Below are positions 8,690 through 64,000 of a DNA stretch of 64,000 bases, one piece after another. The position numbers were made by a program, and so were the translations under genes. Source of the DNA: Nautilus pompilius (taxonomy: Eukaryota; Mollusca; Cephalopoda; Nautilida; Nautilidae); assembly GCA_018389105.1 (NCBI GenBank), contig JACATO010000604.1:372001-436000 (forward strand). Direction: 5' to 3'. Under the pieces are notes generated by a model that saw only the letters and a program-made list of their open reading frames with translations, was not told the DNA's origin and did not search any database. Numbering within the stretch: position 1 is the first letter of the stretch; every line of letters begins with the position of its first letter.

Positions 8690-9360
8690 AATAATGATTG
8701 CTTGCTTAGTGGTCCCCTGACATTTCAGAGTATTACTCTCATGGTTCTCCCAAGAGATGGCGGATTCAGCCTTAGAAACTGCGTTGTTGGTTTAATGTTT
8801 TTGAAAAGCATCTCGGCACTGATGTTTCAGAGTATTTCTCTCATGGTTCTCCCAAGAGATGGTGGATTCAGCCTTAGAAACTGCATTGTTGGTTTAATGT
8901 TTTCGAAAAGCTCATCAGCGGTGCCAACCCATCAGATTTAGCTGTCTTTGGAGTATTTTGGACATTCTTTGAGGTAGCATTCAATATTTTCAGCCAAGTT
9001 GACAATTGTCATTGAAGTGGTCACTCCTGTCCTTGGAGCATGGGCATTAAGGTGGGAACAAATGACCTATAGGTAGTCTGCTAATCTGTACCTGTAGACC
9101 TACAGGTAACTTATGAAAATCTCTTCATACATTTGTTGATTCTAATTTCTTCAAATCATGGTATGTGTTGTTTTCACAGATGCTTTCACACTCAAGAAGT
9201 CAACACCAGGTATACTCAGAGGTAACTTAGTGGCAGCTTTGGCAATTATCGTGTCAACTTTTTCATTACTTAGCAAGCAGCCATTGTGCCCGGGTACCAA
9301 CTGCTATATAAGTGTGAAACTCTGTTCAAAATTTCATGATTTTGTATCATTTACCTAAAT
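8690..9360 (-). mobile_element. Degenerate non-LTR retrotransposon 3' end (RNase H and C-terminal region)
   Basis: On the minus strand WYPGT is followed, one frame over, by GLLSNEKVDTIIAKAATKL and then PLSIPGVDF. This corresponds to the W-x-P-G-H-x-G-x-x-G-N-E-x-A-D segment of RNase H domains in Jockey/I-type LINEs. The histidine is lost and a frameshift separates the halves. Downstream, ENIECYLKECPKYS resembles the VEHILIECPxY segment that follows RNase H in these elements. Several stops are present. The exact LINE clade cannot be set. Confidence 0.6.
8723..8926. repeat. Tandem duplication, 102-bp unit, two copies
   Basis: Copy one starts at 8723 and copy two at 8825. They share CAGAGTATT, CTCATGGTTCTCCCAAGAGA and GATTCAGCCTTAGAAACTGC with few differences. 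The unit is a multiple of three and lies in the C-terminal part of the LINE relic, so the duplicated minus-strand peptide (NIKPTxQFLRLNPPSLGRTM) appears twice. Confidence 0.9.
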
Positions 9361-43165: not shown

Positions 43166-44828
43166 TGTTTAACATTAAGTAATAGGCTTTTCGTTAAAAC
43201 ATTGAGATTTTGAACTGTCAGTAGTCAGTTTTGTTTAGGGTAACAATTTTGCAGCCCTCGGTGAATCGTCAATATTTTGTTTTTTTTGACAAATTTTGAA
43301 AAGCTGAATGTTTGCAAGATGATAGATGGAAGAAAACACTTGGGTTTCATGTAATGGTGAACACATCTAGTACTCAGATATTCTACAGGAGTGAGAACGG
43401 AACAATTTTTGACATTGCTGAAAAATAATTCAAAATTAGAGAAAAACTGTCCAAATTTTATTTCTTTGGTGGTGAGGAAAGCATTAAACCACAGAAGAGT
43501 GTGCTAGCAATAGTGTTTTTTTATATACTTTGATGATGTTAATCTTAATCCTGCCTGTTCCAAATAGACATACCACAATGCAGCAAGCACCAGCCTTTTA
43601 CATATGGTGACATTAACTCACAATACTTCAAAATGTGTCTAGCTAAACCTGACAAGACTTCGACTGTGGAAAGAGCAGCATGGTAGGCTCAGTTTGGCAT
43701 ACCTTTCTAGCATGGCTTCTTGCTCTAGTGGATTTCCTTTCACATTTAGAAAAAAATGAAGAGTTCTGGTAGGGATTTTCCAATTTATTGTATATAAGTT
43801 GTGAGTAGGGAGTTGTTTGGCCATCTTAAATATTCCTTGATACCAGGCAAAAGTTCCTACATTATAAACAAACTCTTGCACTCAGGTTTCCGTGTGTATT
43901 TTGTGAACCGCTGTCTCTGGTAACAAGAGCCAGCCATTATCATTATTATTATATTATACATTGTATGTACTTTTCAGTACTTACCTTAACCAAGAGCAGA
44001 AGTGTTACATTTTTAGACTTTCTCCATGCTGCATAATGCTGGCTTGATCTTTTGCATGTAAATAAAACTATATTCTGGAAAAAAAACTAAGCAAAAAGTT
44101 ATATTTCTGACAAAAAGTTATCTGTATGGCCTTATCAAGACATTTTAAATTTTCTATAATTCCAAAGCTTATAACAATTGTAAGTATTGTTTCTATTATT
44201 GATACTGGTTGGTTAGACTGTGGGGATTCTTCCAAGACAACTAATATTTTCTCCATATTAAAATTATCTTCCTTTTATTTATCCAAAGATGATCATGTAT
44301 CCATTAAATAAATGAAGTCTGGATCTTGGCACTGTGATAATTCCTTTTGGTAAAGGAAATTCTTCTATTGTTCTAAACAAAACAAATTACAATACCAAAA
44401 TCAGTACTTTACCAGACTTTTGCATTTATAAACAAGTAAACCAAGATCTGATGCCTGCTTTTGAGAGGCTAGTGTGAGAAATCACTGGTTAATTCACACC
44501 ATTCTGCAGCACCAGGCTACTTGGTTTATGTACAAGTTCTTAAAGCTGATGTACCACAAATACCTATTGCCATTAGGACTGACTCACCTATATATATCAA
44601 CTTGCAAAATATTTGGTCTCTGTTATTTCTTCTCTTGCTGATCACACCAAGTCCTCTATAAAAGATTTCTGCTTCCTTCTAATGAAAAATTATAAAAATA
44701 CAGTTAGCAGTTAGATTCCTCTGAAAGCTTTGTGGGTTTAAACTTTGTCTTTGTTCACAGATATTCCCATCAATGGAGTTTCTCAGGAGATCCTTTACAT
44801 TCTCGTAATGCTCCATCCCTACGAATAG
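43166..44828. other. Non-coding or decayed LINE
   Basis: No clear feature. At about 44640 a plus-strand frame reads LADHTK, reminiscent of the FADDTK reverse-transcriptase box, but no supporting motif follows at the expected distance. Confidence 0.3.
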
Positions 44829-44834
44829 TCTCTC

Positions 44835-44882
<48 letters not shown>
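44829..44882. repeat. (CT)n microsatellite
   Basis: 54 bp, one interruption. Confidence 0.95.
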
Positions 44883-44885
<3 letters not shown>

Positions 44886-45193
44886 GACTGCACATTTGGT
44901 ACTGTTCATCTTTCACATTCATACTTCATTTGCAACAGTAATTTTTACTTACAAAAAATGAGCAGCAGCCCCAGCTTCATCCCTTTTCACCAGTTTTAGC
45001 CAACTCAAAAATTTTCAAAACTGTCAGGACATAGGAAAGATAGACTCATGTTACCAAACAAACCTTCTTGCCCTCATTTTTTTAAACAAACTTTGCAAAT
45101 TCATTGTTCTAAAAGCGTTAATGAGAAATCTCTATCCTGGTGAAACTATTAACAAATCTTCCAAATAGTAAAATGTCAGTAGTTTTGGTTTCT

Positions 45194-45285
45194 CTCTATA
45201 AATCATTAGTTAGACCTACAATTTGGGCATAGAGCCTACATCGTGTAAAGAATATTAATATCTTGGAAGTTGTGTTGCATATGTT
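45194..45285 (+). mobile_element. LINE reverse-transcriptase fragment
   Basis: The plus frame reads LYKSLVRPTIWA, a stop, then SLHRVKNINILEVV. This parallels the CR1/RTE-like segment LYKALVRPxLEYAxxVWxPxxxKDIxxLEKVQ, with two residues lost and a stop. It resembles a second fragment 1.1 kb downstream. Confidence 0.5.
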
Positions 45286-45639
45286 TTTATCTTGATGTTT
45301 TAGCATTTTTTTCTCAAAAAGTAATAGATTTTGATACTAATTACACACCATGTACTATTGTGGTATGTTAAGTATGAGATAAATAAGGAACACTCATGAA
45401 CAAACATTAGGAAGTTGTTTTTTTTTTTTCAGTTATCATATAACAGCTTCCCAGAATACTTTACTAAATCAGGTAGTGGAACAGGAGTACATAAATACCT
45501 TTAAAAATTGTATGGGGTTCTATAGAAGTTTTAAAAACTTGCTTTGTCCTGTATAAAGTAGAGTTAAAGTGGATTAATTAGTATAGTATAAAAGCTAATT
45601 TATCAATATTCACTTTGTAGAGAGACAAAAGTCATTGGA

Positions 45640-45925
45640 GCGGAGCATTTTGGTTGTTGTTGTACCCCTATCCATCAGTGGAGGCTGTAGCCAGCCATGA
45701 GTGGGGAAGCAGAAGTGTGTCACATTGGGAACTGCGGCAGCAACCAACTTCAGATGACCCAACAAACCTTCCAAAAGTCCCTACTGGTTAGATGAGGGAG
45801 GAAACTCACATGACCAACTTGGTTGTGTGTGGGGTTGGTAGAAGAAGATATATTATGCTGGAGGGGTTACACTCAGGCTCCTTACCTTAGCAATCTGCTG
45901 ATTACCAGACAACCACGTCGACCTT
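45640..45925 (-). mobile_element. tRNA-derived SINE copy
   Basis: Minus-strand head: GGTCGACGTGGTTGTCTGGT, AATCAGCAGATTGCTAAGG and B-box-like TGAGTGTAACCCC (about 45866-45878). The body has a GTGAGTTTCCTCC segment in minus sense, as in other copies. Confidence 0.55.
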
Positions 45926-46152
45926 TGAAACATCTAAAAGTATTAACTGAAAGCTTTATCGATATTTTTCTTTTTCTTTTTCCCGAACCCCCTCTTTTTT
46001 TTTTTTTTAACTAATATTCAATATGGACTACTAATAGGATAACCATATTGGAACTCTAGAGCGATGTTATAGATTTCACGTATGAAACTGAAGTACAACA
46101 ATAGTGATAGTGTTGGAGATGTGCGTAGTTTGATTCAAGTCATTTGGTAGAC

Positions 46153-46453
46153 TTTGAATTTAGTGTTTCAAAAACATATGTGTCTGCCTTGGACAGATGG
46201 AAGAAAAGCCATTCACATACTACGTCAACATTAGTAAGGGGGGACTAGGATTTAAGGGTTATAGCAGGAAAACATCGGAGAAAGTCAAACATGTCTTAAA
46301 ACCATCAGGGTCTTAGCCATGTAAAATTATGGTAAACCCCTTTTTACAGTTCTTAAAGCTCTCCCTTTGGAGTATGCAGTTCTGACATGGATTCCACATT
46401 GCGTTAAGGATATTGATAACTTGGAAAACGTTCAAGGGGTTCGTGATGTACAT
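46153..46453 (+). mobile_element. LINE reverse-transcriptase C-terminal relic
   Basis: FEFSVSKTYV at 46153 corresponds to the W-x-x-x-F-N-x-x-K-C-x-V region of LINE reverse transcriptases. About 65 codons later, in another frame, LPLEYAVLTWIPHCVKDID then NLENVQ at 46361-46435 matches the LEYAxxVWxPxxxKDIxxLEKVQ region. Order and spacing agree with the family. A frameshift and stops make it non-functional. Confidence 0.65.
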
Positions 46454-49308
46454 GATGTCAGTATTATGAAGAAAAGCTGCGGAGACACCGGCTGTCTGGT
46501 GGGGGTGGAGGGTTTCATGGCATAATTGAAGTTCTGAAAATGTTTTCAGGAAGAAATACTTAAAGATAGAATCTTTGACACTAGGACTTGTAAGTAGAAG
46601 ATGATGAGAAACGTTCCCAGTCAAATCTTTGGTAGATATTATTTTCATATAAATGAAGCATCTCTTTGCCGAGAAGCTTTGCTAGATCAGGTCATGGAAG
46701 CTGAGTGCGTCAATATATATATATATATTTTAAAGAAAATAAATGGGGCCCAATATAAAGTTTTAAAAACTCTGTCCTTTTGACTTTCTTTTCCCCATAT
46801 CATCTTTTAAGGATAAATAACAGAATTTGAATATCCTTAGTATATTGCTTTGTGATGGCTATGCTCAAAGGAACTACGTAACAATTATTGTAAATTATCA
46901 TAGTGGCTCCCTCCAAAAATCAAAAGAGAACTAAATAAAGTGATTTTCTCGTCAGATGTTTAACTAGACTCTTGGTAAAAAAAGACAGACAAACTCCATG
47001 AACACCCCCCACCCCCCACCCCTCCTCCCCCCCCTCCTCCCTTTTTTTTTTTTTTTTAAATTCATAAAAATGAATATTTGTTAAGGAGAAATTAGTTAAG
47101 CAGTTATCTAGAATATAGCTTGCTAAACTTGGACTGACTGCCACCACTAGTCAGGTAAACGAAAGCAAAATATTTTTTGTTCGTGGAAAGGAAGCTGACA
47201 AATCCTTCGCTGCTGCAGATAGGAAAGAACTATTTGTGTCATGCGTTGCAACTTTGCGGACACTTGTTTTCTTTTTTCCTCTTGTGGTGGAAAGGAGGGT
47301 TGGCTTAGTGTGTGCCGCCTTATCATGATTGCAGCCTTGGTTTTGGTCCTGAGGGGGGTCTGAACTCATTTTACAGAGGGTCCATGGCTATGTTTGATGT
47401 CTACCGAGCAGCGTTTCTCTTCTATGGCAGTTTGGTTGTCTTCCTGGTTTAAATCAGATGAGCCTCATTGAGTTCTTTCTATATAGAGGCCGAAGTTGCT
47501 GTACATCAGAGTCTTTTGAGCCAGATTTATTTGTCTTTAGTACTGCACAAACCCCTTTCCTTTACATAGCTTTGGCGTGTCAGATTCTGCCTCGTATCGT
47601 CAAGGTAACACGAGAAAGGAGAGAACAACAACTATCTAAAAAGCGCCTTAATTTATTGTTTTCCTCCTCTATTACCAAGAAATTTTTTTTTTTATTCTTG
47701 GCACTAAGAGACTGCCTCAATTTTTTTTTCACTCTCACACTTGACCTGCCCTGGTCCTTTCCACTCATCCTTTTCTTTGGCAATTACTTCTTCACCATCA
47801 CAAATCTGTTTATTCACATTTTCTGCCTGATTTTCCTATCAAAGCATAAGTTCACTTCCCCATCTGGTTTTGATTTCATCCACACACACACACACATCCT
47901 CAGAAGTCACCATGTTTTGTGTCTTTTCTTCTAGTTTCCTAGCTTTAGGGGTTGCGATCAGGCCTGATGGATGCCTACCTACATATTGGGACCTTTGTTG
48001 GGTTTATCCAGTGGATAATCACAGAGACCGTAAATTAGAAAAAAATAAGAATGCGACCTGCATGTTTTTTTTTAATGCTCTATATTCTTTATGAAACCAT
48101 AGCTGATATATAAAATTAGTTACAAAAGCAAAAACTTTTTTTTTGCGATAGCTCTCCCATTATAAGGGAATTCATTGAGTTTAAGTTCTTTTGATATAGT
48201 TCAATAGGTGATACCATAGCTCTTTTGTCAAGAAGACCAGAAGAAGCATTGTATGAGTCATAGTTGTGCATAGTACTGTGAAGTGTTGTTACATTTTTTT
48301 CTGCTCTTGTTTCAAGAGAGCTCAGTACAAGGCAGTGGTCTTCAAATGTTGATAAAAAAATTATTATTTTTATATGAATCTGATAGATTTTGATCATTTA
48401 TGTTGAATGAAACAGAATGGTGGATAGTAATAGCATCTGTTAAGGCGATGTGAACTTCAGTAAGCTATCAATGTGCATTGTTTGGTTTATATAGGACTTT
48501 CAGAAAATCTCAAAATAAGTCAGTCTCGTTTATACCAGTAGCTTTAATTATTGAAAATATTGTTTGATTTATTGTTCCTAATTTACTTTTATAAACAAAA
48601 TACAGTGATGGCTGCTCTCAAAAACTGCTTTTTAAAGATGAATGTATCTTTTTAGGTTTTTGAGGTAGAGGGTGGCATTGCATGCTGAAAGCAAAATAAG
48701 TGATTGGAGGTTTAGTGTATCCACTTATGACAGGGATTGTCAACCTTTCGTTTACTAAGTAAATGATTCTTCATTGTTGAAAAGACTAGTTTTTATTTGT
48801 CTCATCATTTTTACAAGATAAATTAAGGTACAGGGGTATAGCTTGCTAGTCTAATTTCTCAATGTAACAAGCTGTGCTCAGCATTAGAATGAAATCCATA
48901 TACAGCTTAATTTTTTGAGATTTTCTTCATCTTCTTTCCCTTTTTTTTTTTTAACCTGACATAATCAGAGGGGTTGGCCTAGGAGATGTCTGCTATAGTC
49001 ATCTTCAGTTGAGAGAATATAAAGTGCATGCAGCACCATTCTAACTTGTTCTTTACTCCTGCATAACCTGCTAATGTAACCATTTGCCCCATCACTGAAT
49101 CCAAGATAAATTAACTCTTTATTGTTCCATAATAGCCATTAACTTATTTTAAAGAAGAAAAAAGTATTATTTTTTTTAATTGCTAATGTTAAAAGCTGCA
49201 ACATTAATTCTGATGAAACAGTGTCAGTTATTCTTTCTTGATGATTTTAGTTGGTGAAGGGTTTAAGAGATTTTCTAAGGATGTGCCAACAAAATCTGCT
49301 TGCCTCAG
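46454..49308. other. Non-coding, simple repeats
   Basis: (AT)n at 46713-46728, a C-rich/T-rich tract at 47005-47057 and (CA)n at 47880-47896. The 158-codon plus ORF (47458-47934) is T-rich, with poly-phenylalanine, and not credible. Confidence 0.45.
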
Positions 49309-49324
49309 CAGCAGCAGCACCCAG
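49309..49324. repeat. Target-site duplication, left copy
   Basis: CAGCAGCAGCACCCAG, 16 bp, identical to 49664-49679 on the other side of the SINE. Confidence 0.9.
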
Positions 49325-49663
49325 CCGGCCCGGTGGGGCAGGTGGTAGCGGGTTAGCTCCGTAAGGGGACCGTTGCTCCTGTACCGGGTTCGATCCCAGG
49401 CTGGGGTCGGAGGAGAGTTGTCGCTGATGATCGCCATAGCGTGAAACAGCTGTACGACATCTCCTTGGTGTCCGACGTGAGAGAGACCTCCCGGGTCCTT
49501 GGGGCCCACGGTGTCGGGGGAGCGGGCCGTTTGTCGGCTCAACGAACATCTCTCAGTATCGAGGAGGACTCGTCAGAGAACAGGCCACTTGTCTTTACGG
49601 GATGCGATGCCATTGCAAGAACCTCGTTCGGAAGTCCAACTCGCTCAACAACAACAACAACAA
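49325..49663 (+). mobile_element. GC-rich tRNA-derived SINE, well preserved, (CAA)n tail
   Basis: This 339-bp insertion is far more GC-rich than its surroundings and is flanked by a perfect 16-bp duplication. The head contains GGTGGGGCAGGTGGTAGCGG and a canonical B box GGTTCGATCCC (49387-49397). The body (49400-49640) is CpG-rich. The 3' end is a (CAA)n run at 49646-49663, the tail used for LINE-assisted priming. Intact CpGs and duplication suggest a young insertion. It differs from the AT-richer SINE family seen elsewhere in the window. The overlapping ORFs are not genes. Confidence 0.9.
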
Positions 49664-49679
49664 CAGCAGCAGCACCCAG
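49664..49679. repeat. Target-site duplication, right copy
   Basis: Identical 16 bp to 49309-49324. Confidence 0.9.
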
Positions 49680-49722
49680 TTAACACAAAGACAATGAGGT
49701 AATTTTAGTTCACTATCATCAT

Positions 49723-50012
49723 TTAGTTATACCAAGCAGCACCACGTTTGAGATGGCTACCTATGGTATTATCTATTTTGTGTCTCCCGATAAGAAGACA
49801 TGGAATAAGCTGGGATGTCACCTCCATGGGCAAAGACGTGGTGTTGACGATATCAGCAAGGGCTTTCTCATCAACCATATCGTTTTTTTCTTCAAGGGCA
49901 CTCAAAATGATGCAACTGTCAGAAAATAGAAATAGTCTTGCTGCATCAGAATATTCTGCAAACATCTTGGTGGTTATTAGAAGGGAGATTGGCTTTCTTT
50001 TCCTGAACAGAA
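49723..50012 (-). pseudogene. Unidentified coding-like segment
   Basis: A minus-strand frame is open from about 50012 to 49723. It includes LVLFRKRKPISLLITTK, FAEYSDAARLFLFSD and EEKNDMVDEKALADIV, and ends GAAWYN. Composition is protein-like with mixed charge, unlike the random ORFs nearby. An acceptor-like TGGTTCTGTTCAG precedes it on the minus strand. No family is recognised. It could be an exon, a retrocopy fragment or part of a transposon. Confidence 0.25.
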
Positions 50013-50029
50013 CCAGTTCAGTCTAATTT

Positions 50030-52520
50030 AAATATAGGTGCTAATGAACAGGAACCATACTCTTGTCATGAGGAAATAACTGTGATGGTTTTTGTCGTCT
50101 CTTTTTTCTTTCTTTTAATGAAAAATGCCAAACTTAAAAATTTTGTTGTTGTTGTCATTGTCGTTCTGATCTTCTCCCAATTTTTTTTTCTGCTCTGTTT
50201 ATTTTTCATTACATTCTCCCAAACTTGCCTTTATCAGGTTTTCACTTTCCAACAGGATGCCAGTCAGATGTAGGATATCTTTTTGTTTTCTTTCTTTCAA
50301 CCTAAACATCTTTAAGCCAAATAGTTAGTTCTTCATTTCTTTCCTTACTTCAAAAGAAAATGAAAACCTTTACTTCTCACAAAGTCCAGAGTAAGAATAT
50401 TTTCTGAACCATTCAACAGTAGATGGAATGAATACTGAATTTTCTTTTCACTGAATTTCAAAGACCAATAGCACCTTTTAATTCTGACCCTGACAACTAA
50501 TCTATTCTATCACAGACTTTTAAAAAAAAAAAATAAATAAATAACTTGACTGTATTTTAATTTTTAAGAGAAGCTCAGTAAATTCAAAAGTTTTAAAATA
50601 TGTATTGACTCTTCTGTCAAAAAGAACACAAATAACTTTGTGTCTCTTAGTTGTACATAGTGTTCAATGACATTGGCATGGATTCTGCCCTTATTACTAC
50701 TAGTAAAGGAAACTGGCACTAGTTTTAACAGGGGTAAAATGTTATAACACCAGCAATTATAGATGAACTGTAATCTATGCTTCTTTTTTTTTTACATTGA
50801 TTATAGCTTCATCTATATGCTTAATTAGAAATTACTGGTATTATAACACTTTGCTCCTGTAACAACTGGCCCCAATGGCTCCTCCTCACTTTAGAGAAGC
50901 ATAGAAATATGTAATAATGTTTTCTGAAGTACCGATGTCAGAATATTTAGCTACTTATTTCTGATTCATTTGTACACAGTATTTAAAATAAATAATAAAT
51001 AGTAGAGATACATGTTAAAAATGAATGTAGTTTGGAGTTCTTTTTTGTGGTATAACCTGGTTCAGTTCTAAACCAGTCTGATCGGGAGGCCTGACATTAT
51101 AGAATGCCTAGAAACTGTATAAATTATCATAAATTATTTGTTCTCTAAGCCATGATCAGCATAGCTTTGTGTTAACTATTGCTGAATATTATTACTCTCA
51201 TGTTTAGTGAAGGAATCTGATATTAGTAATGCATGCTTTCCTCCATTCTCATACTTTTAAAATCTACTTATCCATTAAGGGAATTTTTTTATTTTCGTTT
51301 AAAATTTTTGGATTAAACAGAGAATCAATACAATTACCTGGATTTTTAAAATAATCGCAGGTCTGCGAAGACATATTTTAATTTACTCCATGAATAAAGA
51401 TATCTTTTGCTTTAATGTATCTGTCTCTAAAATTAACTTTCAACAGTTTCAGTAAATTTAAACTTTTATTATCTTATAAGAATGAACCGGGATATATATG
51501 GTACTTTCTCCTGTAAAGGAGATCACAAACAACCCCATCTGTATAAAAGCTGTGCATGCTGGTTAAACAGCAAAATGCATGACAAAAGTGTATAATTTCA
51601 ACATAATTGACTCTCTTTTTTTAAATAGGGTTTTTACTATAGCACTGGACTGTATGTGGTTATTAGTAATTCTTTCTGGATCTAGATAAAAAATAAACAA
51701 AATTTCAGGGAGGGACTGAATGGAGAAGTATTGTTGTTGTGTGTTTGTTTTTTACAGTAGAATGGGATCGAAAGGAAATAGAGCAGTACCCGCCATGTGA
51801 ACTATGAACATGGTGCTATTCCTGCATTTAGGTAAATTTATGGCTTGTTTTGTAGCACACTACTTGCATTGTCTAAATGGCATTTGGTTGGGAAAAGGAG
51901 AAAAATAAGCCTACACTGTCCCCAGGAGGTAGCTTGTTAGGAATACAGGAAGATAATCAGGGTAATATATGTTGAAATATATAGGTATCTTTAGCCTAGA
52001 TTCTATTTATAAATTTGACCGACTTATTCCTGCTTCACCTAGATTATTGATATCTGTGTCAGGTTTGCATGTGTGTAATGGCTGCAGAGGTAAAATGAGT
52101 TATAATGGCAGGAGAGTGGAGGAGAGAGGCAGTTAGCTTCAGCAAACAGGAATGAAGACAACCGGAGGTTTTGTTTCTTTTGTTTGTTTTTTTTTTCCAG
52201 CCATTTAACTAAAAAAATTTTTTTTTAATTTTTAAGGGGTTGGAAGAAGGGGAGTAAAAAGCATTACTATTTCTGATAAAGTGTCGACTTTAGCATAAAA
52301 GTACCATCAAACAAACCTTGTGGGGAAGGGGGGTCCTTCACAAGGCACATGCCAGGTCTCGACCAATCAATCGATTTCATGCATCATAAACAAAACCCAT
52401 CTATTTCTCTTTAGACTCCTTACTTTGTAGGGTCCCAACCAACACAACTGCTTCGGTTTGCTGTGGAGAGGGGCCCCACTTGGGCAACAAGCACCAAGTT
52501 TGGACTTGTGCAAGTCTAGA
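50030..52520. other. Non-coding
   Basis: AT-rich, with A- and T-tracts. Nothing assigned. Confidence 0.5.
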
Positions 52521-52530
52521 GGTTAGTTCC

Positions 52531-52600
52531 CTACTATTGGCTAAGATGGCGACGCTGGTGTCAGCGCGTGCGGAACCTCAAGCTGTGATTGGTAAACATG
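52531..52600 (+). promoter_or_regulatory. Promoter-like YY1/CCAAT cluster
   Basis: CTATTGGCT (reverse CCAAT) at 52534 lies directly upstream of AAGATGGCGAC at 52543, a strong YY1-type site. CpG-containing TCAGCGCGTGCGG and a second ATTGG at 52588 follow. The ATG inside the YY1 site opens a frame (MATLVSARAEPQAVIG) that runs about 70 codons, with a donor-like TGTGGTAACC at about 52640. This could be a start-site region of a gene, but no product is recognised. Confidence 0.3.
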
Positions 52601-53249
52601 CGAAAACAGTGCCATGTGTCCAAGCTTCAAGAAGTCTCAACTGTGGTAACCTTGTTATTGGCAATCCCTGCTTACAGTTGCGGGTGCCAAACAAACTTTT
52701 TCAAAGTGTCAAGTTGGTTTTAAAAAGATTATTTGAGAAGCAAAATGGTACAAGAACGATTTAAGTGGACTTTCAGTAATTTCTGTTTAGAGTAGAACTG
52801 CAAGAAATATAGAGAAAATAATAAAAGCTTTCACTGAAATGAGAGAAAGAAATGTTGATTTCTAATAAATGGTAATTACTAAAGTATATATTTTTCCTAA
52901 AATTTTTTTAAAAAATTATTAACACTGTTGGTATGTAATGTCATGGTAATTATTTTTGTACTAATGATATGGTGGAGGCCCTCCTGAGTGTTGCACATCA
53001 TGGCCCACACAATGACCTAGTTTCGTCAGTGTTTCCTGTTTCTATGGTGGCCATGTTGTTACAAGCAAGGAAAAGTACCGTTTGTTTTCTTCATCTCCTG
53101 AGTTCGTTTACAGAAGCAAAGAGCACTTCTTTTCACTTTTTGAGTAGCATCTTTGGATACCATTACTCTTCTTTACAAGCTTCTGCATTTGTGTATTTAA
53201 TGCTGCTCGTGGATATTTGTTAGAATGCAACCTATAATCCGGTCTTTTC

Positions 53250-53263
53250 GTTGCCATGGCAAT
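53250..53263 (+). promoter_or_regulatory. RFX X-box-like palindrome
   Basis: GTTGCCATGGCAAT matches GTNRCC-N2-RGYAAC at all but the last position. It is the second X-box-like site in the window. Confidence 0.35.
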
Positions 53264-53369
53264 GCAGCCAGCCAGCTAGACAGACATTGCTGCTGCGAGG
53301 CTTCATCATGATGAGAGAACTGCATTGCTGAAAATCAATATCCATGCATTCTCCAAAGATTGCTCAGTT

Positions 53370-53400
<31 letters not shown>

Positions 53401-56139
53401 GAACTGGAGAAAAGCTGACATTGAGACATCATGTTATTTGTGAAGCATCAGAAATTGTTTTTGTTTTTTAATTAATATTCTGTGCTCAAGTGTTACTAAA
53501 CCACATAAACCGAATCAGTATCAAGGGGAGGGGAAAAAACACCTCTGAAACATTCTGCTCTGTGATCATCAAGTGCAATTTTATAGGGAAAAAAAAAAAA
53601 AATTTTACTGAATTCTGTTTCATAGCTGAGATAGTTCCTGATTATTCACCAGGAAATTCTGCACAAACGTATCTGTTCATGAATATTCTTGAAATGTTCA
53701 CGGCAAGTTTATGAATATGTAACACAGGGGGATGCAAAGAATATGAAATGGGGCCTTTTCTCTGCTAACAATTAAAGAACGGCTCTGTGAAAGCTGACAG
53801 CAAACTATTCTTGCAACCACCCCGTTCTTGTTTGTTTTGTTTTTTTTTTTAAATTCTTTCTTCCCTGACCATCATCTGCAACCCTTGTTGTGGGAAGGAA
53901 AAAAAAAAAAAGTGCACTTATTGCCGTTGAATGTGGCCGAGGCACTGCCCTCGTGTCGTTTGTTAATGTTCCCAAAAATCATTCTAAAAGCGCAGGCACG
54001 TTTCAGATCAGCGAGAACAAAGGTTGAGGATTTTTAGAAAAAGTGCCGTGCAGAAATGGAAAGTTATTGTTTGTCTCTCTGATTTCTGCCAAGTGTTTAG
54101 GACAAAGCACTGGAAAGAACATTGCTTTTGCTTTCTTGGGTCAGATTTTAGGCTTGTTTCTTCAAGAAACCCAACAGTGTTATTAGCCGTGCCGCGCCCC
54201 ACCCCTCCAGTCAGTTGACTGCAGCTGCAGTGAACTACTTGAATAGTTTTATTTTCAATGAAATGTGTTTCCTTCCTTCCCTTTAATTGTTCTGTTCTGG
54301 AAATTAAAAGTGGTTGTTTTGATAGACATACAGCCCAACATGGAATTCCCGTCACCTAACTATTGGATCATGTTATTGGGTGTGGAAAATGATAGATTAT
54401 GTATTTGACAACAGTCATATTTGTGGATGCACATAATGGATCATTGTGTAGGACCTTTTGATGGTGGAAAAAAAGTCTTGTATGACAAAGATTTTGAAAA
54501 TAAACTTTCCTCATTACACATATGCACTTTCTAACACTCATGTGCTTACATACGCGTAACTGTGAGCCCTGATAAATTGATTTATGTGCAAACAGTGGAT
54601 ATATTTCATTGGTGAGTTCACACTATGACCACAAAAGTATAAATGTAATATGGGATCAGCTTAGTTTGTTTTTTTGCTCTCCTTGGTTTGGCGCTGAGAA
54701 GATATCTCCTTAGTTCCACTGGAGGAGCAGGAGGGATGGGGTGGGAGTTTGCTGAACAGCCAACCGACAGATTTACACTTTATTAGGAAGTACTAGTCAC
54801 TGACCAGAACAGCCTACTTCCTGTTCTTCCACTATAGGGGGTTCTTGATTTTGAATTCTCTCTCCTCTTTCCCATTCCCTCCATGCTCTCAATCTTTTGT
54901 GTCGCAGTTGGTTCTATGCTGTCAGAAAAGAGACATGCATTCTTATGACCCCCTCCCTTCCCCCAGCAGAAACGCCACTCACACACCCTGCCGTGGGTGC
55001 TTTCCAGGGTGGAGGGGACCTTACGCCGACCAGACGTGTTTTTGCAACTCCTGCATGCAGCCCGCAGAGGGAGCTCTCCCACCCAACCCACCCCTTCGGT
55101 GTTTTAAAGTTTCTGTTATTCTTTCATGAAAGAAATCTGTTCTCAGTCACAGACTAAATTCTAAACCGTTTTCTTTCTTTTTTTTTTTTTGTTTACATTT
55201 CTCTTCGCATTAAAAATAACCTTTAATTGGTCCCATGTGTGTGTTTCACTCCAAATAAACTTAAAAGGGTTTTGATTGATGGAGTGAAGTATCTAAAGAT
55301 GTGACATGCAGTTTGTTTTTTTTTTTTTTGTAATCGGTAATGAATTCTCCTAATATTTTTAAAGCTGCATGTGCATTGTACTGATGGCTATCTTCATCCT
55401 GCTGCGTGGATTAAGGTCCTACCACAAAACTTTAATCCCAAAAAGAACTGTTCAGCACTGAATACGATGTCGACATTTTGTTGGCTGAAGATGAGGCTAC
55501 AAAAAAAAAAAAAACTAGAAATTTGGAAAAGCACCTCCCCCACAAGAACTCTTCAAGATCAGCAGGATTGCTGCCATTTATTGAGCTCTCAATTTATTAT
55601 CAAACCAACAGGGAAAGAGTTTTAAAAATCCCATGTAAGTGTTATTATACATGTGCTCAGAAGTCATAGGGTACTGCTATTGCGCACTAGGGTTCTGAGG
55701 AAAGATGCAAATAGAATCTGTGTACTCTTCCAAGTAAAACTTGTAATAAGATTTTAAAAAAAAAACATTTTGCATTTGAATTATTAACTTATTTGTATAT
55801 ATGTATGTGGGTGTGTGCTGCTTGTAAATTACCTGAAAAATAATTATCAAGAGAGACTGGATACATTGTTAGCACAGTCATATCTAAAGAAACTAGTTTT
55901 ATTCTTGTGAGTAAATGCACGTAAGTTGGTTTTTCTCAAGAGGAATTTGCAGAGAATCTGTGGGATTTGTTATAAATTATAAACATGAAAAATTAAAACT
56001 CATAAATTGCATTTGTTGGATTTTCGTGCCCAATTATCTTGAACCAATTGGTGAACCGTTTTCAAATGTAAAACGGTTTGTTCCATATATTAGTTTGGGA
56101 GCTCCTGTCTCTCCCCTAATGTTATTTAGGGAACCATCA
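53264..56139. other. Non-coding; GC-richer patch 54.7-55.1 kb
   Basis: T-tract followed by A-tract at 53369-53400. The 54680-55110 patch is GC-richer with overlapping ORFs in several frames but no recognised domain. The rest is AT-rich. Confidence 0.4.
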
Positions 56140-56335
56140 TAACATCAAAGCCATTCTCTCTCTCTTCATCTTGTTATTGATAGACTGGCCCAGTTTTAGG
56201 TAGTTTGGCTGCATTGGCCTCAAATTCTCTAATGACTCGATATTTGGGTGACTTGCTCTTGGTGATATTTCAGCGATATTATCCTATCGAAATTAGATTC
56301 TGCTTCTGGACGCCTTGTTACTACCTCTTTGATCT

Positions 56336-56560
56336 CTAACTCATGTCATCAGGGCATCCTTTATCCACATCAGCAGTTTCTCCCTGCAATTTGAGCATCC
56401 TAATTGACAGATCAGACAGCACCTCAGCTTTCCAAACATCAAAAGGGTTTTTACAACTATAATTGCTGCTTTGGTACACTGGTCTTGTAGCTCTAACAAG
56501 GTCTTTGTTCACTTTTAACAAAGAAGATGATGCCTCTGGTGACAGAAAACAACCAGTGAT
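56336..56560 (-). pseudogene. Unidentified coding-like segment
   Basis: A minus-strand frame after an acceptor-like TTGTTTTCTGTCACCAG reads LKVNKDLVRATRPVYQSS and NPFDVWKAEVLSDLSIRML, ending DDMS at a stop. A similar protein-like frame resumes beyond the stop (EIKEVVTRRPEAESNFDRI). Family unknown; possibly a decayed transposon or gene copy. Confidence 0.2.
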
Positions 56561-57114
56561 GATGATGATACCCTCTGCAGCTGGAAATTGACATCAGCAA
56601 TGTGTTGTGAAAGTTTTTCAACTCATTACTGTAATTTGCCTTTCAAAATGACTTTAATAATAATAATAATTGAAAATTATTTTAAATTCTCAATAATTTG
56701 GATTTTTGTTTTATACTACAGGTAAATTAATTGGAAAACTTTCACGGATTTTAGGTGTAAATTAGAATAAAAATTACATTCACTCTAGACATTTACCTTT
56801 TGAAATTAGTTCTGTCACTACTACTTAGGGATGAGAAAAGTCTTGAGTAATCATCTACTTCTTTGAAAATTACCCCATCACCAACAAACTCCTGCATCAC
56901 CTCTGACTACAATGTAAGTTCATTAGCGAGTTCAATTATTACTACTCAGGTGATCTCTTTCTATAAATACCAACCATCACTGATAACACACACACACCCC
57001 ACCCATTTTTTTTCTATTTCTTTTGTTTATAGCAATTGCTTACAAGAGAGACAACCCTAGTGATGCATATTTCCACATGTGGCTGGACACCTCCAGCTAA
57101 GACTGAATCTGAGG

Positions 57115-57187
57115 GTTGAGAATCAAAACCAGGCCCCAACCTTACCAGCCCCAGTAGTTTACCAATGGATCTAGCTAGCAGCACAGA
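57115..57187 (-). mobile_element. tRNA-derived SINE head
   Basis: Minus strand: GATCCATTGGTAAACTACTG, GGGCTGGTAAGGTTGGGG and B-box-like TGGTTTTGATTCTC. Body sequence may continue to about 57070. Confidence 0.55.
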
Positions 57188-57189
57188 GC

Positions 57190-58430
57190 CCCCTAATAAT
57201 TGTTTATTCTTCTATAACACGACTATCAACACCCAACAAGAACCATTTAAACTAATTTCACGCTTCATTACCAGGGAGGGAGGGTTACAGTCAATACATG
57301 AAGGGGCTGCTTACAGATTGGTAAAAGCTACTCAGTTAAAATGAAAGTTTAAGAGAGAGAAGAAAAAAGGAAACTACACAGTGAACCTGGAAATGGATAT
57401 TGTGTAGGTTGCAACTTCTTGCAGCGCCCACCTCCTCTTCCTTGTAATTGCTCTCCTGCTAGTCTATACCAATAGAGAAAAGGAACCGACTGGTGCCTTT
57501 GATGTAGGTAGGGTTGGAACAGAATCCAGCCAGGTTCCATCTACTCGGTGAGTGCTGTCTGTACCTGTCATTCTTGGCAGAGGCTCAGCAATTTTATCGA
57601 TTAAATTAGTTAATTATTTTGTTATTACTACTGCTGCTGAACATAAGTGGCCTTTCTGGTAATGGCCCCCAGGAGAGGATACTGAACCATAATATAGTTA
57701 ATTTTAAAATCATTCCAGGCGCTAGTGTATCGCAGAGCTTTCAGCATCCCCTTTTGAGACGCAGACTCTAAAGTGATCAGATAACATGAAACCAGGTTTG
57801 AGCAGGTAGGCAGGACCCCCCCTTTTTTTCTTTCTTTCATTTTTCTTTGTTTCTTATCTTTTGCACTGTTTGTTGTTACGTGCAACATTTGCTTGGTGGT
57901 TATTCACAGAAATAAGCAATTTAACCCCTAAAAGATAGCTAGTTATAAGGCGAGTTTAAGTGGCAGGGAGTTTACAACTTGCTTGGAGACACTTTTTTTG
58001 CCCCACCCCCACCCCTCTAAGAAATGGATATTTAGCATGTTTTAAAACCATTTTAAGGCTCACCTTTAGCAGCTCCACTGGGAAAAGCAATCTATGAATG
58101 TATAACACTTTGGCTTTAAAAGAAAAAAAAACCCTTACTATTTAATGGAGTAGGGCTTGAGGGTGTTAGCCAACTCCCTGTGAAACAAGAAAGCTATTAA
58201 CTAAAACAAAATATTTGGTGAGAAGCACCTGTTCTTTCTCAGATTGTGAACTTTTAAAACAGTGATCCATCAAACTATATAGTTTAAATTATCCAAGGTA
58301 ATCTAATAACTGTATCTAATTATTCAAATAGAAAAGTCTTTTGACCTCTTTCTGACTGTTTATATCCTTAATAAAGTAGGGTTTCCATGACTTTACATTG
58401 TACTCCAAAATTAGTTGGACCATCTGGAGT
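57190..58430. other. Non-coding
   Basis: No assignment. Short C- and A-tracts only. Confidence 0.45.
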
Positions 58431-58511
58431 TCTCATGGGTCACCTATCTGAGTACCAACCAGTCTTTGCACTGGTAATTGGGTGTGAATTGGTATGGTAT
58501 GTTCCTGTAGG
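58431..58511 (-). pseudogene. 5S rRNA-derived pseudogene (or 5S-headed SINE)
   Basis: The plus-strand segment 58438-58462, GGTCACCTATCTGAGTACC followed by AACCAG, aligns to the complement of animal 5S rRNA (GGTCTCCCATCCAAGTACT then AACCAG) with about 20 of 25 positions identical. After a gap of about 20 nt, GGGTGTG, GGTATGG and GTAGG follow in the order expected for the complement of the 5S 5' end. The promoter region is incomplete, so it is not a functional 5S gene. Confidence 0.5.
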
Positions 58512-60064
58512 TTAACACTTTCTTCTACACTTCTTAGCTAAAGATCAGAACCCCACACATACTGACTGTCATAACTGTGGACTCTTCAGTGAAACAGCCT
58601 GCCCTATACTTTATACACAAATCAATTAGTAATTATAATTTCATGTGCATCAGCAGATGACTTTTTAAAAAATCCGTTTGTGTAAAAGAAAATTTATTTT
58701 CAAGCTTTTGTCACATAAGACGTTCATCAAAATGTCTTTTACTCTTGATGACTTTTTAACAAATCTACAATTATGACTCTGTGTGTAAAGGAAATTTTAT
58801 TTAATATAGTTGCAAAAGAATTATGAGTAAGTGTAATAAGTCAGGAAACTTATAACAAGCAAAATTCTCTGGTTGCACACACACACACACACACTGCTAT
58901 AAATGAAAATGCTTTTATTCATTTAGTCCATCTATATTAAAAGAACCATGTGTAAAATAATGGGTGATAAGTGTAAATAATATTTCTTTAAAGTAGGAAT
59001 TTAAGAGAAAGAAGTTTTGAGGGTATGATTATATTCACTCGCATCCACACAAACAAACAAACAGCTGCTATTGAACATCCAGGGAGAAATCTTAAATCTT
59101 GTATCTGTAATACTGAGTTAAACTGAACTGTTATTATAAAGAAGTTTCATATTAATTTTTTTTTTTTCCTTGCTGTCTCAAGGGCTTTTTTTTGTGCATA
59201 ATTTATAATCAGCTATATTATGGAAACTGAATGAATCCAATTGATTATCTCCCTTGCAGCATTTGTTTAAGTTATACGAATATAATTGTGTTACAGTTCA
59301 AGTTAAAGTTATAATACAATTTTTATGTTTATTCAGTCAAAAAAATCAAAGCAATGCACAAGTTCATTAGATATTTCATATGGCTGTAAGTTTCCATTAA
59401 CTGGAATGGATCATATAAGCTAAGCCATTATGATACTTTCCTTAAAAACCTCTCTCTCTCTCTCTCTCCCTCTCTCTCTCCATCACCTGCATAGAACACC
59501 ATCTGTTTGTGAGCAGACATGGTTTACTCTGTAACTAGAAGCATTTTTTGGATAATTTAACCCGCATGATTAACTTTTATTACTCTTCTTCAGTTAATTT
59601 AAACTGCTAATGCTTTCCAAACAAGTGGAGATGAAACAATAACTCTTCTGTTAAGAATAACCACAAAAACTGCTTTGTGCACATCATGGTTTGTGTGGGT
59701 CAGCGCAATTCGCAGTGTTATCCACCATCAGCAATTTGTATGAACTTTTGTTTTTTTGTTGTTTCTTTTTATCTCCAGTGAGAGAGAGAGAGAGACTGAG
59801 GTGGTTAAATAGTGGCTGGATCATGACAAAGACAACTGTGTCTAGACTTCTGAGTGTACCCCACCCTCCTCCCATTATTCAGTTAAATGCCTGCATTTTT
59901 TTCATCAGCTCAAGGCGCAGAACCATCCCTGACCGTCTTATGAAAAGGAAATAATTAATTGTTGATTGCCCATTCTTGAAATGTTCATAGCCAGTCATTA
60001 CTGTCAATATTTTTCTCGTGCGTATTTATAGCAAATGTTCGGAGTTAATGACAAGATATTTGTT
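58512..60064. other. Non-coding, simple repeats
   Basis: (CA)n at 58876-58894 and (CT)n at 59451-59480. No coding signal. This lies downstream of the receptor gene on the minus strand. Confidence 0.5.
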
Positions 60065-60070
60065 TTTATT
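60065..60070 (-). terminator. Candidate poly(A) signal AATAAA
   Basis: First canonical AATAAA on the minus strand after the stop codon at 60603, implying a 3' UTR of roughly 0.55 kb. AATAAA is common by chance in AT-rich DNA. Confidence 0.35.
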
Positions 60071-60602
60071 TTGTTTTTAATATTAAAGCAATCTTTTGGA
60101 AATGTACACACACACACATATATATAAAGGAATAATTTAATGGTCACACTGAAAGCACCCTACCCTAATGAATTGCAGGGAATACACTTTTAAGACAAGT
60201 TAGTGAAGTTGTTCACTCAGGCCCTTGACCCATTGACGTTAGTAGCATCATTGTTGCTCCACATGTGGCAGCACTATGGTTACGCGAGAGAACTGTCTGC
60301 CGCAAATACCGTGGCATGTTTCTGACATGGTACTGTAAGTGTAGCATCAGTTTTATGAATATGAAACAGTAGAGATAGTAAAGTACACCTGATGATAAAA
60401 CGCATGTGGATGAACTGATTCGAATACTTGTGTTTGAGTTTATAGCCATGATGTATTATATTTTGCCTGAATAGAACTACAGGTTTGACTGATTTAGTGG
60501 TTTTCTTGCAATTGACCCTACAAAATTTTTGGAGCATTCATTAGGAAAAATGAATGTGCAAATTGCTTTTGCTAGAATTAAGCATGCAATCTTGTTCAGT
60601 GC

Positions 60603-62040
60603 TTATGAAAGGAAAAGGTTTTCATAAATACAAATATCTTTCATTTGAATTTCATCACTGTCACTAGGTTCACCATCAGAGTCATAACTGGTGTTGGTGC
60701 TGGAAATGTCTGTGACAACAGTCAGGTCATCGTCAAATTCTTTGTCATCCTTGAATTTGTTTGGATATTGTGTTTGTAGAGCAGTCTTGGTCAGAGAAGC
60801 TGATATTTTAGGTTTGCTTGGCAGAAAGTTGTCATTGCAAGACTTGTTGCTACATTTATCTTTGGAGTCCCCATCATGACTTGTGACAGATGTGTCACTG
60901 TGATGGTCTGAAACATTGTCATACATGTCACAACTTTGCTTCTGAGGTTCAACACTGTAACTTAAAGGCTTGGCAACTGACTTACTGTCGTGGAGATGAG
61001 AAATCTTATCGTGCATGTTGCTCCAGGAGCTATATCTTTGTCCAGTATTAGTTACGGGCTGGTCACAGTATTTAACAGAACCTGTAGCTATAATGTTACC
61101 AGTATTGTCATAAGTATCGATGCAGTGTTTACAGCCGACTTTACAATTGGTTGAACATTTGTGTTTGTATACTTCTTGTAGATCCAAAACCTTTCTATAT
61201 TCACCATCGCTGTAACTGCATTTATGTTTTGCCATATTTGTTGGAATTTCTTCAGTATATTCTTTAGTTACAGGAGATGCATTGTTTTCATGGTGAGAAG
61301 TATTGCTATAGACACAGATATTGGAGTAATCTATGCCCTCAGGCTTGATGCAAGACTGAAATTCTTGTTCCCTCAAGCATGTCTCACCAGAACAGCAGTT
61401 CTTTTCCTGATTATCCATTCTGCTCAGTTCTGCATTTTGTATTGGCTCACTTTCTGAACCATTGACAACCAGATCATCATCTTTACTATCCTTCATTTCA
61501 TCCTCCTTAATATTTATCTGGTTATAATTATTCAGTTTGGTAGAAAAGTTTTTTCTGTTTAGATCCAAGTGGTCATATTTGGAAGCACCAGAAAAATGAT
61601 TATAAACATTTAGTCTTTTTGGAGAACTTTTGCCACCCTGTTGATTTTTGTTGCAATAAAGATCATCTTCTTCATTTCTTTCTGACAGATTTAGTCTGTT
61701 GTAATTACTAGAAGGACCCTGACTTTGAAATTGACCAGAAGGAATCAAAACCAACTCACTATTTTCCTCTCTAACATCATTGCACACCTCTTCCTCAGCT
61801 CTGATTATCAAATCTACTTCATGTATTGCAGTAGATCTTGGTCTACTATTCAGGTCACACTTATTGTGAACATCCACTAGTATATTTCTTGTTCCATACA
61901 CAGGATTTATATACATTTCTATAGCTTCATCTGCCAGATCATTTTGAGTAGGGTGTTTCTGTTCTGGTAGGTTGAGTTCAATGTCAATGTAATCATGTTG
62001 GACTTGCTTTTTATTCTTTCTTTTGTTCCTCTTATTCTTT
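60603..62040 (-). CDS. Terminal exon of a tyrosine-rich single-pass receptor (cytoplasmic tail)
   Basis: The minus-strand frame is open from a splice acceptor to a TAA at 60603-60605. The first exon base (62040) is the third base of a split codon, so the preceding intron is phase 2. The 478-residue product starts with basic KNKRNKRKNKK, typical of the region just inside a membrane span, and has no membrane segment or enzyme domain. It holds 22 tyrosines: an NPVY motif (residues 45-48), eight YxN motifs (Y43, Y128, Y238, Y244, Y310, Y373, Y425, Y472) and three Y[ND]x[LI][ND][LI] motifs (Y113, Y155, Y172). NPxY binds PTB-domain adaptors and pYxN binds Grb2-type SH2 domains. A CxxxCxxxCxxC cluster lies at 295-306 and an acidic SDSDE near 459-463. 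An NPxY/YxxL-bearing tail suggests Draper/CED-1/MEGF or other invertebrate immune receptors, but the class is inferred; ectodomain exons lie outside. The internal ATG at 61916 is not the true start. Confidence 0.75.
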
Positions 62041-62067
62041 CTGAAATTAGAAGAGCAAAAAAAGAAA
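62041..62067 (-). promoter_or_regulatory. Splice acceptor with polypyrimidine tract
   Basis: The minus strand reads TTTCTTTTTTTGCTCTTC then TAATTTCAG directly before the open frame. The AG is at 62042-62041. Reading back from the receptor frame, the coding sequence stays open exactly to this point. Confidence 0.8.
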
Positions 62068-62689
62068 CTGATGTAGTATCATCCATAGTGGTAATGTTGC
62101 ATGCCATAGTAACTGATTTCTGCACAAAAAAAAAAACAATTCAAGACGACCATTAGTAATATTCTGCTAAACAAATTTTAGGTCTGTTCTGTTAGGGATG
62201 GAATTGAGACAGATGTCTAAGACAAATCAATCAAAAACAGATTCATTAGAATCAGTTTAATTTCCTTAGAGAGACATCAAAAATGCTTGAAATATTCAAA
62301 TTTTTACAATAATTAATTGACAAATTCTCCCCAGCCAGCCAACAAATAAAACTACCAGAGTTGTGTCCCTTTGATCATAAAATTATTATTACATTAATAA
62401 TTTGTTTCTTCTTAGTGAATCCTATTGTGATGGTATTCGTCATCTTTTAGCTACTGAACTACACTAACTATAAGTTTTGTGTATTTTTTAAATTTCTTCA
62501 AAATGAGTTTTTCTACCATTGGTAAGGTCTGAAATCAGTCACCCATCTACGCATGAAGCCAGAGCAGAATAGATGGCAAAACCACTGGAAGTAAACATTA
62601 ACTGTGAAATGTGAAAATGTACAATGGATGTTGAAACAAAATCTGTTTCATATAGCATTGATATCTTTCTTTCTTTTCTTCGATCACTC
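62068..62689 (-). other. Probable intron of the receptor gene
   Basis: AT-rich, no coding signal. No transmembrane exon with a phase-2 donor was found here. Confidence 0.5.
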
Positions 62690-62975
62690 ATTTCATAAGA
62701 GTGGAATGCATTGCACCGTCGTTATGCGTACTCTGGCCCAATGCATCCATCTTCAGCAGTAGTTTGTTCTTCTGACTTTTCCTTGTCATAGGAGACTTTC
62801 CTCTGTCTGAGTGCCTACACAGGCCACTCCACGGCAGCAACTTTAGCAGTGCCAGTAAAGTACCTTGCTCAAGGGTCACAACAATGCACCAGCAGCGGGA
62901 ACTGAACCCAGGACCCTTAGGTCCTGAAGCCAATGCACTCACCACTGAGCCACATTGCCTGGCAATGGAAGATAC
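62690..62975 (-). mobile_element. tRNA-derived SINE copy
   Basis: Minus-strand head: AATGTGGCTCAGTGGTGAGT (A box), GCATTGGCTTCAGGACC and GGGTTCAGTTCCCGC (B box). The body contains ACCCTTGAGCAAGGTACTTT. The head is closer to a true tRNA than other copies. The 119-codon minus ORF through it is a repeat artefact. It sits in the intron side of the receptor gene. Confidence 0.7.
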
Positions 62976-63378
62976 TAAATGCACGGCTGTTACCTGTCGG
63001 CATTGGCTGGCTAGTGTTGATGTAAATGGCATCTGGTTGAGTTTCATTGGAACATCTCTAGAACATTTTCCACAAGTTTACTTTCAATAGACCATGATGA
63101 AAAGATTCTTTTTTCTTTTTTAAAATTCAAGCAGGAACAGCTGCTGTTCTTTGCTAAATGAGCTAAGTAGCAGTAGTTTCATTAACATGAGGATTTGGTT
63201 AGCAATGTTCACCTCTAACTACCTGTCCCCCACATTCCACTTCTTGCTGCTATATAGGCAGGTTCATAAAAGTTCCTCCTTTCAAAACCTATTTGACGAT
63301 AAACTTCAGTGGGTCCATCTGAGATCAAAAACCAAGCCACGTAGCAATGAGACACGACAATGCATCAAATTTCTTATA
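62976..63378. other. Non-coding
   Basis: No assignment. Lies between a SINE and the mariner element. Confidence 0.5.
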
Positions 63379-64000
63379 TGAGATTTGTCAAAAAAGTATC
63401 CAATCTTAGGCTGAGGAAAAAAAATTACGTACTTGGTGGGGTTCACTTGCTAATCCCCTTCAAAGTAGGCTCCTTGTGCCTCCACACACTTAGCCCAGTG
63501 ATCCTTCCACTATTCGAAGCACATCTGGAATGCTTCTTCCAGAATGGCTGTCAGCTCCACCATCGCATTCCGCATGATGTGCTCTTGGCTCTCAAAGTGG
63601 GAGCCTTTCAGTGGCATCTTCATTTCTGTGAACAACCAGAAGTCAGAAGGAGCCGTGTCTGGAGAGTAGGGAGCCTGGTGAATGAGCAAAATGCCTTTCT
63701 TTGCCAAGAAACCTTGGATCAGCTGCAACGAATGAGCCAGGGCATTGTCATGATACAGCTGCCAGTTTTGTGAGGCCCACAGATCGAGTCTCTTGCACCG
63801 AACTGCATCACAAAGACATCGGAGGACTTCCTGTTAGTACTCCTTTGTAACTGTTTGTCCTTATGGTATGTATTCATGATGCACAATGCCTAGGTAGTCA
63901 AAGAAAACAGTCAGCATCACCTTGATTTTGCTCTGGACCTGACGTGTTTTTTTGGGCCTTGCCAACGTTGGATACTTCCACTGTGATGACAGCTTTGGTT
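63379..64000 (-). mobile_element. Mariner transposon, 3' part, truncated by window edge
   Basis: The minus-strand 3' end reads TTGGATACTTTTTTGAC then AAATCTCA and abuts a TA (63377-63378), as expected for a mariner terminal repeat and TA target. Transposase is encoded on the minus strand just inside. The 5' part lies past 64000. Confidence 0.85.
63447..64000 (-). pseudogene. Mariner transposase, C-terminal part, disrupted
   Basis: Minus-strand frames give KIKVMLTVFFDYLGIVHHEY, then LYHDNALAHS (second catalytic aspartate; HDNAPAH in the family), then YSPDTAPSDFWLF (third aspartate). The end is WKDHWAKCVEAQGAYFEGD and a stop. A TAG at 63510-63512 replaces the residue between CFE and WKDHW. A frameshift or stop occurs near 63860 (after HHEYIP). 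It resembles the common animal mariner group with LWASQNWQ before the HDN box. Not functional as it stands. Confidence 0.85.

Follow-up and report, generated by a model that had tools for sequence, protein, structure and literature searches.

A phosphorylated tyrosine in a YxN context is the motif bound by the SH2 domain of Grb2. Among transmembrane adaptors, LAT is described as carrying three Grb2 sites, LAB three main ones and LAX five among its ten tyrosines, and an earlier model by the authors of that description predicted a gel-like phase for trivalent LAT (PMC3291652). Other tails combine motifs of different kinds. Draper and MEGF10 have NPxY together with an ITAM, and CED-1 has NPxY together with one YxxL (PMC8092387). 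The LDL receptor carries FDNPVY, and the PTB domains of Dab proteins bind FxNPxY and serve endocytosis (PMC4584282). CD3 zeta contains YNELNL, and the ITAM consensus spacing is given in the same source as x6-9 (PMC5585231). In shrimp Dscam, predicted SH2-binding motifs and ITAM-type motifs are distributed over several separate tail exons (PMC6851185).

Here we describe an exon of Nautilus pompilius that probably encodes the cytoplasmic tail of a membrane receptor. In a literature search on YxN/Grb2 tails of invertebrate receptors, the matches listed included only a general review of endocytosis. Searches on mollusc tails with ITAM or NPxY, and on oyster hemocyte ITIMs, gave no paper recognisable, by its title or the start of its abstract, as describing such a tail among the matches listed.

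A long terminal exon most likely begins in phase 2

The exon lies on the minus strand of the window, by which we mean the whole 64,000-nt stretch of DNA that was analysed (Table 1). Its stop-to-stop frame of 491 codons is the longest open reading frame of the window. In third-order Markov simulations (60 windows), the longest stop-free frame averaged 165 codons and never exceeded 254. The assignment as a real terminal coding exon is supported.

The reading frame opens inside the intron and runs through the pyrimidine tract ahead of the acceptor TTTCAG/A AAG AAT, from which phase 2 is read directly. Acceptors were scored with a simple consensus of our own making, and on this scale 15 of the 4340 minus-strand AGs, the tail acceptor included, reach at least 11.1. 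A stronger AG (12.4), whose first exon base would be 62119, is ruled out as the start of the tail exon by an in-frame TGA at 62081-62079. Because this rival runs into a stop and TTTCAG/A scores well, a phase-2 start at 62040 is most likely. Tail swapping by exon shuffling, which the original prediction saw as allowed by this boundary, finds no support in the window, where the exon occurs once; shuffled ectodomain modules are mostly of phase 1-1, not phase 2. On the 3' side of the exon, further A[AT]TAAA sequences occur at 60141, 60081, 59581 and 59333, identified by pattern only.

Table 1. Features of the tail exon and of the DNA upstream of it, in window coordinates
Feature	Position	Strand	Remarks
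Terminal coding exon, phase-2 start	60603..62040	-	1438 nt: 1 nt closing split codon, 478 codons, TAA
Splice acceptor, pyrimidine tract and CAG	62041..62060	-	score 11.1
Basic cluster, probable stop-transfer	62004..62039	-	KNKRNKRKNKKQ; 8 K/R in 12 residues
YINPVY, NPxY with aromatic at -5	61896..61913	-	motif scan; overlaps first YxN
YNRLNL, repeat 1 of Y[ND]x[LI][ND][LI]	61686..61703	-	motif scan
YDHLDL, repeat 2 of Y[ND]x[LI][ND][LI]	61560..61577	-	motif scan
YNQINI, repeat 3 of Y[ND]x[LI][ND][LI]	61509..61526	-	motif scan
Six more YxN	60759..61658	-	motif scan; Y128, Y238, Y244, Y310, Y373, Y425
YENL, C-terminal, eighth YxN	60615..60626	-	motif scan
AATAAA, possible polyadenylation signal	60065..60070	-	about 530 bases past stop; pattern only
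tRNA-derived SINE-like repeat	about 62690-62960	-	judged by eye
Candidate upstream exon	63318-63234	-	85 nt, phase 1 to 2, donor AAT/GTGGGG
Candidate upstream exon, longer version	63318-63223	-	96 nt, phase 1-1
Mariner-type transposase remnant	63777-63989	-	Pfam Transposase_1, E 2.2e-9; interrupted by stops

YxN sites are enriched in the encoded tail

YxN occurs at tail residues 43, 128, 238, 244, 310, 373, 425 and 472, and the sole NPxY, NPVY, occupies residues 45-48. The six-residue pattern Y[ND]x[LI][ND][LI] begins at residues 113, 155 and 172, and nine YxxPhi and three ITIM-like sites are also present. A motif scan of the 478 residues found YxxP and PxxP once each and YxxM not at all. The original prediction had described a 478-residue tail encoded by a single exon with a phase-2 boundary. 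It counted 22 tyrosines there and named eight YxN sites, a lone NPxY and three six-residue repeats. Each of these was recovered by counting in the exon (62040-60603), which stays open for 478 codons behind a phase-2 acceptor. The accompanying statement that most of the tyrosines stand in contexts that could dock adaptors also agrees with the count, as 15 of the 22 fall within YxN, NPxY or YxxPhi.

Motif counts were compared with 20,000 composition shuffles of the tail in 15 rows, one of which (the tyrosine count) is invariant. YxN is found eight times against 2.1 expected (P 0.00035), and this result is unchanged when shuffling is confined to 60-aa blocks. The pattern Y[ND]x[LI][ND][LI], which was written post hoc after viewing the sequence, is found three times against 0.008 expected, a count reached in 0 of 20,000 shuffles. 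These two rows survive correction for the number of rows. The rows that fail are YxxPhi (9 versus 4.2 expected, P 0.012 before correction), YDN (2 versus 0.19, P 0.014 before correction), Yxx[LI] (6 versus 2.4, P 0.026 before correction), ITIM-like sites (3 versus 0.95, P 0.066) and NPxY, which alone is not above chance (1 versus 0.08, P 0.078). The remaining motif rows reached no significance.

When all 20 residue types were compared for asparagine at +2, tyrosine had by far the largest excess (8 versus 2.1 expected). The corresponding values are 5 versus 2.3 for V, 5 versus 3.4 for E, 4 versus 1.4 for R and 4 versus 5.1 for S, and the one tryptophan of the tail also has asparagine at +2. Thus, the excess of asparagine at this position is mainly a property of tyrosine.

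The half-sites of an ITAM are spaced x6-12. The pattern Yxx[LI]-x(6-12)-Yxx[LI] has no match in the tail and one match at x13, where YDHL and YNQI form YxxL-x13-YxxI, one residue beyond this spacing. No internal duplication was detected by blastp of the tail against itself, which gave the full self-match alone.

The chain has a basic start and is probably disordered

The basic cluster is located exactly at the exon boundary. A 12-mer as basic as this one appeared anywhere in the chain in 0.08% of 5,000 shuffles, and at the chain start in 0 of 5,000. From its sequence we infer a stop-transfer signal following a membrane span; basic clusters can alternatively be nuclear or phosphoinositide-binding signals. 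The tail as a whole is net acidic.

AlphaFold2, run on the single sequence with no alignment and therefore weak as a guide, gave a mean pLDDT of 32, with 478 of 478 residues below 50. The mean hydropathy of 0.382 is lower than the charge-hydropathy boundary of 0.431, which places the chain on the disordered side. Based on this model and on composition, the tail is probably disordered.

There are 18 cysteines in the tail and none before residue 61. Four of them (C295, C299, C303 and C306; 61122-61157, minus strand) form a CxxxCxxxCxxC cluster, for which metal binding or palmitoylation is possible.

Pfam returned no match to the tail above cut-off; an FMN-domain match (E 0.2) was below cut-off and was rejected as chance. 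A sequence search of the PDB with the tail found no match. A peptide pattern matched two stretches in IMG/VR and 16 in GTDB contigs; no relative was confirmed among them, in keeping with a gene that is neither viral nor prokaryotic. No second copy of the tail is present within the window (best other match E 0.79).

Upstream DNA within the window

The 1,960 bases upstream of the exon yielded neither a membrane span nor a signal peptide nor an ectodomain. On the minus strand of 62041-64000, where the window ends, two candidates for an exon with a phase-2 end exceed the splice thresholds (4 for donors, 6 for acceptors), and neither of them is hydrophobic; the best 19-residue mean, 0.44, falls inside the SINE-like repeat. 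Rfam and ARAGORN report nothing in the window, this repeat included, and blastn of 60000-64000 found no second copy within the window.

One of the two candidate exons, at 63318-63234, encodes GPTEVYRQIGFERRNFYEPAYIAARSG, a stretch that includes YRQI and FYEPAYIAA. The 32-aa frame of its 96-nt version has no match in PDB or Pfam. As a control, we took the 381 minus-strand acceptors with a pyrimidine content at least that of the candidate, and 59 of these have an open frame of 80-200 nt leading to a G/GT[AG] donor, a rule that the 96-nt version fits and the 85-nt version, with its donor AAT/GTGGGG, does not. Comparable open stretches are therefore common, and the candidate is not above chance as an exon. 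If 63318-63234 were real, about 28 more residues would precede the basic cluster, making the tail longer and placing the cluster farther from the membrane.

The three minus-strand frames of 62041-64000 gave a single Pfam match, to the mariner-type transposase remnant, whose mariner-like reading continues by eye to about 63466 on the same strand. Pfam matches elsewhere were all below cut-offs. The search covered all three frames of 49002-64000 and 57000-60602 (minus) and of 54001-64000 (plus), single frames of 44002-49000 (minus) and 52000-58000 (plus), and 10 of the 13 other window ORFs of at least 120 aa. Far from the exon, a remnant of a Tc5/pogo-type transposase DNA-binding domain (1160-1609, minus strand) is indicated at E 0.0024, which is below the Pfam cut-off, and a 102-bp unit is repeated at 8723-8911 (1.9 copies, 95% match).

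A probable receptor tail and its alternatives

The gene probably encodes a single-pass membrane receptor, and its last coding exon, the one described here, would supply a tail for signalling through several adaptors. In favor of this reading are the open frame of a length far above chance, the good phase-2 acceptor, the basic cluster at the exon boundary, the tyrosine-specific asparagine at +2, the aromatic-x-NPVY sequence at residues 43-48, the signs of disorder, the lack of a PDB match and of a Pfam match above cut-off, and the scarcity of YxxM, YxxP and PxxP. We infer a receptor rather than read one directly, as the DNA up to the end of the window yielded neither a membrane span nor an ectodomain. 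The original prediction of a receptor tail is partly supported, by the terminal exon, the tyrosine-specific YxN excess, the basic start and the probable disorder, and the membranous and outer parts did not come to light in the window. The suggestion of an engulfment or immune receptor remains a guess that draws on NPxY together with YxxL-type sites; the tail has no ITAM of canonical spacing. Nutrient receptors also carry NPxY and YxxL-type sites.

If the receptor reading is correct, the exon would encode nearly the whole of a disordered cytoplasmic tail that opens with a basic stop-transfer cluster. Clustering by ligand would then lead Src- or Syk-family kinases to phosphorylate many of the tail tyrosines. 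Up to eight pYxN sites could give multivalent recruitment of Grb2/Drk-type SH2 adaptors, and the YxxL/I sites could recruit other SH2 proteins. YINPVY would engage a PTB adaptor of the Shc, Dab or GULP/CED-6 type, tying signalling to uptake or endocytosis. Y43 is common to a YxN site and YINPVY, so Grb2 and PTB binding might compete there. By analogy with described systems, a multivalent docking tail is the most likely function.

Long, disordered, tyrosine-rich tails that are often encoded by one last exon are also found in cytosolic docking proteins. The exon could represent such a tail in a protein of the FRS2, Dok, Gab or IRS type whose PH or PTB domain would be encoded by upstream exons, and that no membrane span is seen upstream in the window fits this proposal. 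However, a tail with no YxxM, a single YxxP and a single PxxP is unlike the docking proteins IRS, Dok/Cas and Gab. Moreover, the basic run falls on the exon boundary, and NPxY is usually a ligand of docking proteins rather than part of them. We consider a docking protein unlikely.

A transmembrane adaptor resembling LAT, LAB or LAX would span the membrane, expose hardly any ectodomain and use this tail as a multivalent Grb2 scaffold, phosphorylated by the kinase of another receptor. The many YxN sites and the net acidic, probably disordered tail with a basic start are compatible with this possibility, as is the Grb2 valence described for the LAT family (PMC3291652). However, the first 60 residues include no cysteine. 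The palmitoylation site of LAT is at the membrane, and the ectodomains of LAT, LAB and LAX are very short. A length of 478 residues is great for an adaptor of this type, and NPxY with YxxPhi is more typical of cargo receptors. An adaptor of this kind therefore seems distinctly improbable.

A mainly endocytic tail of a nutrient or scavenger receptor, in which YINPVY and YxxPhi are coated-pit signals and YxN is weak or regulatory, is very unlikely. YINPVY does resemble FDNPVY (PMC4584282) and nine YxxPhi are present (P 0.012 before correction), but the YxN excess, the strongest signal among the motifs named beforehand (P 0.00035), is unneeded for endocytosis.

Returning to the receptor reading, one further version is that an invertebrate receptor joins the roles of an antigen-type receptor and of LAT in one chain, which we regard as improbable. 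Vertebrate lymphocytes divide such roles between these two proteins. In the one-chain version, CD3-zeta-like YNxLNL half-sites would join a Grb2 scaffold of eight sites and an NPVY serving endocytosis, and together they could condense adaptors on the receptor itself.

If the tail does belong to a receptor, that receptor would be unusually rich in Grb2 sites, and it would offer a natural test of whether multivalent adaptor clusters of the LAT kind can form on receptors themselves, with no scaffold apart from them. The present evidence consists of one exon with motifs of familiar types, from a gene whose presumed outer part lies beyond the window.

Comparison with known systems

The tail of the LDL receptor is far shorter and less tyrosine-rich than that encoded here, and the ectodomains of its family contain LDLa, EGF and beta-propeller modules. 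The likeness to this family lies in the aromatic-x-NPVY sequence, with YINPVY fitting [FY]xNPxY (PMC4584282). With Draper, MEGF10 and CED-1 the tail shares an NPxY, here NPVY, accompanied by other tyrosine sites, although the ITAM described for Draper and MEGF10 (PMC8092387) does not occur in it at canonical spacing. An EMI/EGF ectodomain is a feature of those three proteins, and the present gene is known from its tail exon alone.

YNRLNL, YDHLDL and YNQINI follow the pattern of CD3 zeta YNELNL, the first half of an ITAM (PMC5585231), but here no second half-site follows at x6-9 and the nearest pair is at x13. Whereas the motifs predicted for shrimp Dscam are spread among several tail exons (PMC6851185), those of the present tail all reside in a single exon.

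The likeness to LAT, LAB (NTAL) and LAX is that several YxN sites occur in one tail, for which multivalent Grb2 binding is predicted. Taking at least three YxN as the mark of these adaptors, the tail has eight by motif count, with binding predicted. The view that eight is unusually many is consistent with the values of 3 for LAT, 3 (main sites) for LAB and 5 for LAX (PMC3291652), and NPxY and YxxL/I sites are extra here. We therefore suggest, by analogy and with no claim of membership, that the tail works like LAT-, Draper-, LDLR- and CD3-zeta-type systems. Judged by its sequence, it appears to be a rich example of familiar kinds of motif, with a number of predicted Grb2 sites above those of LAT and LAX.
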